Positions 346 to 54,012 of a stretch of 64,000 bases of DNA are shown one piece after another. A program made the position numbers and the translations under genes. Source of the DNA: Marinomonas sp. THO17. Lineage in GTDB: Bacteria > Pseudomonadota > Gammaproteobacteria > Pseudomonadales > Marinomonadaceae. Positions within the stretch are counted from its first letter, which is position 1. Every line of letters starts with the position of its first letter. The stretch covers positions 248,001 through 312,000 of the forward strand of contig NZ_AP031575.1 in NCBI RefSeq assembly GCF_040436405.1, read 5' to 3'. Below the pieces are notes generated by a model that was not told where the DNA came from, searched no databases, and saw only the letters and a list, made by a program, of their open reading frames with translations.

Positions 346-430
346 TGGTGCGGATGGAGAGACTCGAACTCTCACGCCGTGAAGCACTGGAACCTAAATC
401 CAGCGTGTCTACCAATTCCACCACATCCGC
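346..430 (-). tRNA. leuW: tRNA-Leu (anticodon UAG)
   Basis: The minus strand folds as a type II tRNA of 85 nt. The acceptor stem is GCGGATG/CATCCGC with an A discriminator, and CCA is encoded in the DNA. The D-arm contains GGTAGAC, and the anticodon stem CTGGA/TCCAG carries loop TTTAGGT, so the anticodon is TAG (plus-strand positions 394-396). There is a long variable arm and a T-loop GTTCGAGTC. The long variable arm and the anticodon identify leucine CUA/CUN decoding. The gene stands alone between pyrC and a DUF599 gene. Confidence 0.97.
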
Positions 431-4124: not shown

Positions 4125-4138
4125 TCTTAGCTGCTTTA

Positions 4139-4403
4139 GGGAAGGTGAGAATAAGTCTTCTGAACATCAGTCTTATCAGAGAAACGGCCTATCAAGGCAA
4201 GAGTGAGCAGGAATGTTAATACCTTTCAATCACTCTTAACACAGAGAGGCCGTTTCTCTGAAAAACCCGGAGGGCGTGGTCTAAGCTCTCTTTATTCTTT
4301 GTTAAGCTTCTTGCCAATATACTTATATTGGACTGCGAAACTTGCCTCGAATAAAGGAGAGTTATCCACACGCTGAAGTCAGTGGACTTGTTCGTACCTT
4401 CCC
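4139..4403. mobile_element. MITE-like palindromic element, copy 1 (265 bp, best preserved)
   Basis: It is bounded by TA on both sides (4137-4138 and 4404-4405). The terminal inverted repeats both start GGGAAGGT and then run as GAATAAGTCTTCTGA (left) and CGAACAAGTCCACTGA (right, read inward). Inside are two nested stem-loops. One is a perfect 14-bp arm pair CAGAGAAACGGCCT (4177-4190) with its complement at 4247-4260, and a second stem AAGAGTGA/TCACTCTT within it. The other has 12-13 bp arms around 4286-4297 and 4349-4361, containing CCAATATA-CT-TATATTGG. There is no coding capacity. TA target duplication suggests mobilisation by a Tc1/mariner-IS630 type transposase acting in trans; no such gene lies in the window. 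It is placed between the htpG stop and the next terminator, so it is probably transcribed with htpG. Confidence 0.75.
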
Positions 4404-4408
4404 TATAC

Positions 4409-24976: not shown

Positions 24977-25115
24977 AAGGAAAGTAAGAATAAGCCTCTG
25001 TACTTGTCTTGATAGGCTATTATTTAGAAAGCCCGCAAGAGAACTACTTAGATGTTGATTATTAGTGCAACAAAGAAGCTATTGTATTGGCCAATAGACT
25101 TGTTCGTGTTTTTCT
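24977..25115. mobile_element. MITE-like palindromic element, copy 4 (degenerate)
   Basis: The left end (GGAAAGTAAGAATAAGCC, from 24979) resembles the left end of copy 1. The right end read inward (AGAAAAACACGAACAAGTC, from 25115) aligns with the right end of copy 1 over 19 positions. The flanking dinucleotide is TA on both sides (24975-24976 and 25116-25117). CTTGATAGGC inside also occurs, inverted, in copy 1. The middle is shorter and more diverged than in copy 1. Confidence 0.55.
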
Positions 25116-46537: not shown

Positions 46538-46593
46538 ACGAAGGTGCGAACAAGTCCACTGATTTCAGCGTGTGGACTTGTTAGTGCCTTCCT
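46538..46593. mobile_element. MITE-like palindromic element, copy 2 (56 bp, ends only)
   Basis: The left arm GAAGGTGCGAACAAGTCCAC and a right arm reading inward AGGAAGGCACTAACAAGTCC form a near-perfect hairpin separated by about 10 bases. TA flanks both sides (46536-46537 and 46594-46595). The left 35 bases continue as CTGATTTCAGCGTGTGGA, the same as the right-end interior of copy 1. It looks like an element with its middle deleted. It fills the junction between pilC and the broken pilD, and its right-hand TA completes the TAA stop of pilC. Confidence 0.7.
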
Positions 46594-53913: not shown

Positions 53914-54012
53914 AACAAGGTACGAACAAGTCCACTGACTAAGGTAAGCTTCTCCTGCGTTGCTCTAACCCCCAACATCCATGTGATGTTAGAAGATTTA
54001 TTCGCACCTTTC
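53914..54012. mobile_element. MITE-like palindromic element, copy 3 (99 bp)
   Basis: The left end AACAAGGTACGAACAAGTCC (then ACTGACT) equals the right end of copy 1, and the right end read inward GAAAGGTGCGAATAAATCTT equals the left end of copy 1. The copy is therefore inverted and internally deleted. TA flanks both sides (53912-53913 and 54013-54014). A small hairpin AACATC/GATGTT lies near the right end. It is placed between nadC and the aceE control region. Confidence 0.75.

Follow-up and report, generated by a model that had tools for sequence, protein, structure and literature searches.

A conserved four-way-junction fold and changing ends in a superfamily of putative non-autonomous mobile elements of about 263 bp

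Introduction

MITEs are usually seen as short-lived relatives of one insertion sequence (IS) with which they share their ends, as described in the available part of one account (PMC10969869). MITEPsy1 of Pseudomonas syringae resembles the elements reported here in its IS5-type ends (GGAAGGTCTGAAAAAGCC), its 4-nt CTAG/YTAA duplication and its lack of genes, and its transposition has been trapped (PMC3189936). It differs in being 100 nt long and in the presence of a likely partner, ISPsy2, and the available portion of that paper reports no conserved fold. Its authors found well-conserved copies in some P. syringae only and suggested that similar sequences may be widespread (PMC3189936).

The Correia/NEMIS, ERIC (RU-1) and RUP repeats are likewise mostly intergenic and mobile and give long-stem transcripts, and RNA containing Correia repeats is cleaved by RNase III (PMC2229807, PMC10969869). 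Unlike the present superfamily they measure about 100-200 bp and form one stem loop from their two ends, and the available parts of these sources describe no exchange of ends. The CIR repeats of Caulobacter and Brucella share with our elements two hairpin arms joined by a linker, an intergenic position and conservation between alpha-proteobacteria, whereas they are about 110 bp long, lack terminal repeats and carry GANTC in a loop; an identity with CIR, raised by a motif resemblance, was dropped on account of that length and lack of terminal repeats (PMC2229807, available part). GANTC is missing from 17 of the 20 superfamily elements examined. A motif resemblance also raised integron attC sites, which were dropped on comparison with the general features of such sites.

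E. coli IS5 (InsH) shares its terminal 16 bases, with 0-1 mismatch, with most family ends of the genome studied here; it differs in encoding a transposase and in not being matched by our superfamily model, R1. A search of open-access full text, which covers few subscription papers, returned no title or abstract describing a family of about 263 bp with the fold reported below.

Results

Copies in the window

The DNA analysed (the window) is a stretch of 64,000 nucleotides from Marinomonas sp. THO17 (NZ_AP031575.1, positions 248,001 to 312,000). A first-pass annotation had described at least four intergenic places in it with common inverted-repeat ends, bordered by TA. We assign the following features; the limits of P1, P2, P3 and the central mini-hairpin are approximate.

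4140..4402, plus strand: complete element of 263 bp with IS5-type ends, matching positions 1-263 of model R1
4136..4139, no strand: TTAG, left target site, degenerate partner of CTAT at 4403-4406 under the YTAR rule
4403..4406, no strand: CTAT, right flank
4140..4169, plus strand: 5' strand of P1, terminal inverted repeat and subterminal stem
4170..4266, plus strand: P2, left hairpin arm
4267..4273, plus strand: CCGGAGG, central mini-hairpin (superfamily consensus CCCGNAGGG)
4274..4373, plus strand: P3, right hairpin arm (right arms as a class fold better on the minus strand)
4374..4402, plus strand: 3' strand of P1, terminal inverted repeat
24979..25114, no strand: diverged copy with family likeness at its ends only, by end-motif and full-copy comparison
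46539..46592, minus strand: 54-bp deletion derivative, right-end sequence with a closing second terminal repeat
53915..54012, minus strand: 98-bp deletion derivative of a long variant

The end motif GGAAGGTGCGAACAAG, with up to 3 mismatches, has 6 matches in the window against 0.35 expected, and none of 100 shuffles reached 6. Three of the four annotated places hold up on this evidence (4140-4402, 46539-46592 and 53915-54012). The fourth, 24979-25114, has no match to the motif at 3 mismatches: its ends lie 2 and 4 bases off a relaxed motif and it resembles the full copy over 21 bases at its start and 20 at its end only. With diverged ends and an interior unlike that of the full copy, this place is the least well supported of the four. 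The first copy does lie where it had been placed, except that the annotated limits, 4139 and 4403, reach one base too far on either side, into the target site. R1 scores this copy at 209.6 bits on the plus strand versus 83.1 bits on the minus strand.

Among the shortened copies, 53915-54012 retains 34 bases that resemble the right end and 26 that resemble the left end and, by eye, carries part of an insert common with two genus loci, L045 and L046. The copy at 46539-46592 consists mostly of right-end sequence, and its second terminal repeat is not assignable to the left end. The flanks of the four copies, in order of position, are TTAG/CTAT, TAAA/TTAA, GTAA/TTAA and TTAA/TAAA, so that none of the four has an intact duplication.

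Mobility and IS5-type ends

The genome-wide end-motif search that the first-pass annotation had proposed did find further copies: an 18-base motif, with up to 2 mismatches, matches the 3.92-Mb genome 87 times and its reversed control 0 times. A blast of the first copy on the same genome gave 50 matches, 13 of them nearly complete at 90% identity or more. Some of the further copies are lengthened by a central insert. In L044 and L083, from two Marinomonas species, a hairpin-bearing sequence of 48-50 bp (CCTACATGGATGTAGG ... GCAGGAGC) lies within the central mini-hairpin; by eye a similar insert occurs in L045 and L046 and, diverged, in L047. This insert is a small repeat placed in the loop of another repeat.

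Across the genus we collected 106 loci (one place, L084/L197, is counted twice), of which 96 matched over 90% of a reference; both ends could be placed in 94. The same 4-mer stands on both sides of 59 of these 94 copies and fits YTAR in 58 (24 CTAG, 24 TTAA, 5 CTAA and 5 TTAG); 153 of the 188 flanks fit YTAR. The bare TA border of the first-pass annotation thus gives way to a 4-bp YTAR site, and YTAR is the target site of IS5.

The ends point the same way. The first window copy matches IS5 at 15 of 16 bases at each end. Among the 14 copies of its genome with ends placed, the left end equals one end of E. coli IS5A over 16 bases in 9 and the right end is one base off the other IS5A end in 12; the left-right difference AATAAG/AACAAG is identical in the family and in IS5A. 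For the 94 genus copies, 72 left and 55 right ends show 0-1 mismatch per 16 bases to the IS5A ends. Conversely, 28 of 30 IS5-like loci from relatives have at least one end of the family type beside the gene, at up to 3 mismatches. By their ends and 4-bp YTAR duplication, the Marinomonas members fit IS5-type MITEs. The mobiliser of Tc1/mariner-IS630 type previously suggested for the window family is not supported, and we reject it on these same two features.

We aligned the region of the first copy with eight congener loci. In two of them, from G004 and G032, the copy is missing from the orthologous gap and the flanks are continuous; a few bases at the junction align uncleanly and the exact target is not seen. 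With many copies, target duplications and an element-free site in two sister species, the earlier reading as non-autonomous insertions is borne out, and the window repeats are almost certainly real insertions of mobile elements.

Candidate transposases

Searches for InsH and PF01609 and a reading of ORFs between widely spaced end motifs found no transposase gene bounded by the family ends in the window's genome. InsH gave 0 matches there. The single PF01609 (DDE_Tnp_1) gene of the genome was rejected as a partner, being IS4-like by eye and without family ends. Three pairs of end motifs about 1.2-2 kb apart were considered as autonomous copies and rejected, as their ORFs show no transposase; by eye they are chemotaxis-like receptor, aminotransferase-like and dehydrogenase-like genes. 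More widely, InsH homologues occur in 44 of 94 genomes searched, and InsH-like proteins (E <=1e-15) in 7 of 40 carrier genomes searched.

In G540, a genome with abundant elements, identical ends form 22 pairs with a spacing of 262-263 bases. The other three end matches are weak and unpaired, and no longer element between such ends was seen. Where IS5 ends could be compared with element ends of the same genome, they resemble them in G230 and G243, one IS5 end does so in G412, and those of G540 are unlike the ends of its abundant elements. In one congener (G045, loci L189-L195) both ends have shifted to GGARCCTGCG or GGAARCTGCG types; an IS5-like element in the same genome (L130) has similar ends, GGAACATGCG.

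A conserved fold with compensatory change

Folding returned one architecture, in which the paired ends (P1), the two arms (P2 and P3) and the central mini-hairpin CCCGNAGGG form a four-way junction. For alignment A1, thinning at 93% identity reduced 91 aligned copies to 30. A2 combines 8 Marinomonas copies with 20 complete copies that were selected by hand, leaving out partial, mislocated and near-duplicate ones. A3 is a second set of 45 loci that stood outside model building; because its loci were found and aligned with R1, it leans towards the structure. CCCNNNGGG stands at the centre in 27 of the 28 A2 elements and in 42 of the 45 A3 loci.

RNAalifold gives A2 86 pairs, 71 of which have changed on both sides. 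Doubly changed cells number 527, versus 159.6 after shuffling and 80-97 in slid controls, and column shuffles of A2 fold at about zero energy. In A3, with the lean just noted, double changes occur at 79 of the 86 pairs, and pairing holds in 95.1% of cells, versus 36-41% in slid controls. Against a phylogenetic null all 11 significant pairs of A2 lie within the structure; A3 has 74 significant pairs, of which 65 coincide with pairs of the structure and 72 do so when an offset of 1 nt is allowed. Among the 62 Marinomonas copies alone no pair rises above the null, the same kind of test being positive on the wider sets A2 and A3. The window copy folds at -110.1 kcal/mol (z -9.57), and an Alcanivorax copy has a z of -15.68. 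For whole elements the mean energy is nearly equal on the two strands (-142.4 and -142.8 kcal/mol).

These elements could still be ordinary IS5-derived MITEs, whose ends matter and whose interior is junk conserved by common descent only. Such an origin would explain the IS5-like ends and duplications, and has a precedent in MITEPsy1, an IS5-type MITE that was trapped transposing (PMC3189936). We nevertheless consider it very improbable. A2 and A3 together comprise 73 elements, selected for completeness; all measure 252-269 bases except two of 271 and 284, and pairing with compensatory change is maintained at pairwise identities down to 0.42. Seven IS5 loci gave no match to R1 except one of 44 nt (E 0.0013), which we take as a hairpin fooling the model. 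Within the genus, 88 of the 94 copies measure 252-266 bases (80 of them 262-265) and six 277-325, at about 70% identity between clades; near-constant length at such identity would be odd if the interior were junk.

The body of the element is thus a conserved four-way-junction fold of about 263 nt, kept by compensatory change in genomes across the phylum even as paired terminal bases give way to other pairs, and this fold is very probably under selection. For the covariation of P1, recognition of the two ends by a transposase would be a sufficient explanation.

At the base of P3 the window copy carries TTATCCACA (4362-4370), which we take to be a DnaA-box-like word. It is present in 32 of 37 aligned Marinomonas copies and in 0 of the 20 non-Marinomonas A2 elements on either strand.

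Distribution of the superfamily

A core pattern taken from the genus alignment also matched five records of the Alcanivorax group, with the same core and different ends. Among the matches listed (80 of 81), 71 were from Marinomonas and five from the Alcanivorax group; four (L214, L224, L265 and L280) had no surrounding element by eye and were taken as chance. R1, whose E-values are rough, was then applied to two overlapping draws of genomes; its counts are lower bounds for weak or numerous copies, given strict filters and five candidates scored per genome. Within the class it found members in at least 109 of 369 genomes, from 87 of 272 genera, with 97 genomes at E <=1e-10; within the phylum it found them in at least 73 of 398 genomes, 71 of them at E <=1e-10 and 36 outside the class. 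With 150 candidates scored and both strands counted, the two richest genomes scored gave at least 99 and at least 128 matches. Of the 36 carriers outside the class, 28 belong to one family (f246), mostly with small and often incomplete genomes.

As a model can be fooled by hairpins, the core was also tested with a sequence-only HMM that excluded the ends. It matched 45 of 45 A3 loci (worst E 1.6e-4) and, in a later set, 18 of 20 loci at E <=0.005; the other two were unmatched (E 0.85 and 2.2), and for one of them, L461, the minimum-energy fold is rod-like and lacks the junction. The most distant members therefore rest on the model more than on sequence. Membership of the R1 superfamily, as core homology without the ends together with the four-way junction, is established, more weakly for the most distant loci. 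In framing its test, the first-pass annotation had opposed insertions to a conserved RNA in distant relatives. That was a false choice: the elements are insertions, and they carry a conserved fold, whose conservation over a phylum was beyond what the window by itself could reveal.

At the gathering score, Rfam 15 had no match in 20 loci, nor in the window apart from the tRNA gene at 349-430 (minus strand). For two elements the search was repeated with permissive settings; its matches, microRNA-like ones among them, scored far below that threshold, and identity with a known Rfam family was rejected. The exact 22-base core pattern had no match in IMG/VR. Plasmid searches found the L473 element in two Vibrio plasmid records and the L475 element in four plasmid records, and neither the L244 nor the L474 element; phages and E. 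coli genomes had no L473 element. In G540 three further matches (L406-L408) of 279-285 bases have TAACCCGG ends and a midpoint without CCCGNAGGG, and may be a remote branch or a chance structural match.

Replacement of the ends

In the 39 loci listed of the 45 in A3, the terminal 24-mers are complementary at 18-24 of 24 positions; they differ strongly between lineages. Single genomes hold several kinds: in G475 bodies of 255-269 bp carry four or more end types, and in G540 one body plan carries two or more. For pairs of loci, identities are 0.81 in the core and 0.50 in the ends for L293/L294, and 0.77 and 0.34 for L338/L348, on a measure with a high chance level (0.54 for shuffled arms). In these pairs the sequence comparison shows the ends apparently changing faster than the cores.

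The flanks differ as well. Among the matches listed, 3 of 3 in G976 and 3 of 4 in G540 are flanked by TA and not by YTAR, as judged by eye at an ambiguous border. Members with different ends and flanks may use different transposases, which these patterns suggest and do not prove. In G540, elements of two different subfamilies (L404 and L405) adjoin with a YTAR-like junction in common, an arrangement that would arise if the target site of one had received the other.

Strand sense of the arms and gene context

Arms were taken from 71 of the 73 A2 and A3 elements, leaving out the two above 270 bases. Left arms fold better on the plus strand in 62 of 71 and right arms on the minus strand in 61 of 71, so that the strand read inward is the better-folding one in 123 of 142 arms. 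Over pairs called on both strands, G-U outnumbers A-C by 225 to 62, in cells that are not independent. In the consensus fold the right arms (-37.5) are weaker than the left arms (-60.0). Both arm consensuses share CAAGGCG-like and GCAACGC-like motifs, the core HMM also matches the opposite strand of many loci, and plain alignment of left with right arms gives a weak likeness (0.595 versus 0.539 shuffled, higher in 60 of 71). From these similarities, the two arms appear to be related in inverted orientation.

Two explanations without RNA-level selection bear on these data. Imperfect palindromes are the substrate of a template-switch mutation process, and both arms are imperfect palindromes; neutral mending of quasi-palindromes could therefore yield compensated pairs. 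Under such mending mismatches should vanish, yet similar internal loops (AAGGCG opposite CAACGC) recur, the excess of G-U over A-C persists and length varies little, and we judge this explanation improbable. Alternatively, selection could act on DNA, with hairpins or a cruciform needed for transposition or for replication of a single-stranded intermediate. P1 consists of the two ends of the transposon, the arms meet it in a single junction, and both strands can fold, all of which would suit such a role. The opposite strand preferences of left and right arms tell against it, as no single DNA strand has both arms at their best, and IS5-type DDE transposition is not known to require hairpins in the interior. 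We regard selection on DNA as unlikely, though worth keeping in mind. Selection at the RNA level is, on these sequence patterns, the probable explanation.

Of 157 elements placed in their gene context, 135 were classed: 35 co-oriented with and 39 opposite to flanking co-directional genes, 32 with divergent neighbours and 29 with convergent ones. Between co-directional genes there is thus no orientation preference (35 versus 39). With naive ORF calling, 7 of the 157 lie mostly inside a large ORF. One relative, in a plasmid record of Pseudomonas aeruginosa, sits between two genes of its own strand, 6 bp past the first and 30 bp ahead of the second; with this spacing between same-strand genes, a strong terminator seems unlikely at that site.

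Discussion

We favour, as the probable overall reading, that the non-autonomous elements of this superfamily, about 263 bp long, are mobilised in trans and that their interior is kept as a cis-acting RNA. DDE transposases recognising the terminal bases would move the elements in trans, with IS5-type enzymes acting on the YTAR members and perhaps others on the TA-flanked members. Transcription from a neighbouring gene would enter the element from either side; since left arms fold best on the plus strand and right arms on the minus strand, the entering transcript would in either case meet a well-folding arm first. That first arm to emerge would fold as a cis-acting RNA, either a site for RNase III-type processing or an element that counters polarity. 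Its folding would make an insertion tolerated in either orientation, and hence the interior would be kept.

Which RNA function the arms might serve is a guess by analogy with Correia/NEMIS (PMC2229807, PMC10969869, available parts), and either candidate, RNase III-type processing or anti-polarity, is doubtful as the specific role. On a wider scale, the elements may form a mobile structured-RNA chassis across the phylum, an ancient body of about 263 nt that swaps terminal repeats, rides different transposases and presents a cis-acting RNA arm in both orientations; we offer this picture tentatively, as a possibility. For the specific RNA role, antitermination RNAs provide a further analogy.

In contrast with the usual view of MITEs, the interior here seems older and better kept than the ends. 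If the RNA reading is true, the superfamily would represent an RNA structure that hitchhiking has made widespread among bacteria, and it would allow direct tests of how small mobile elements spare adjacent genes.
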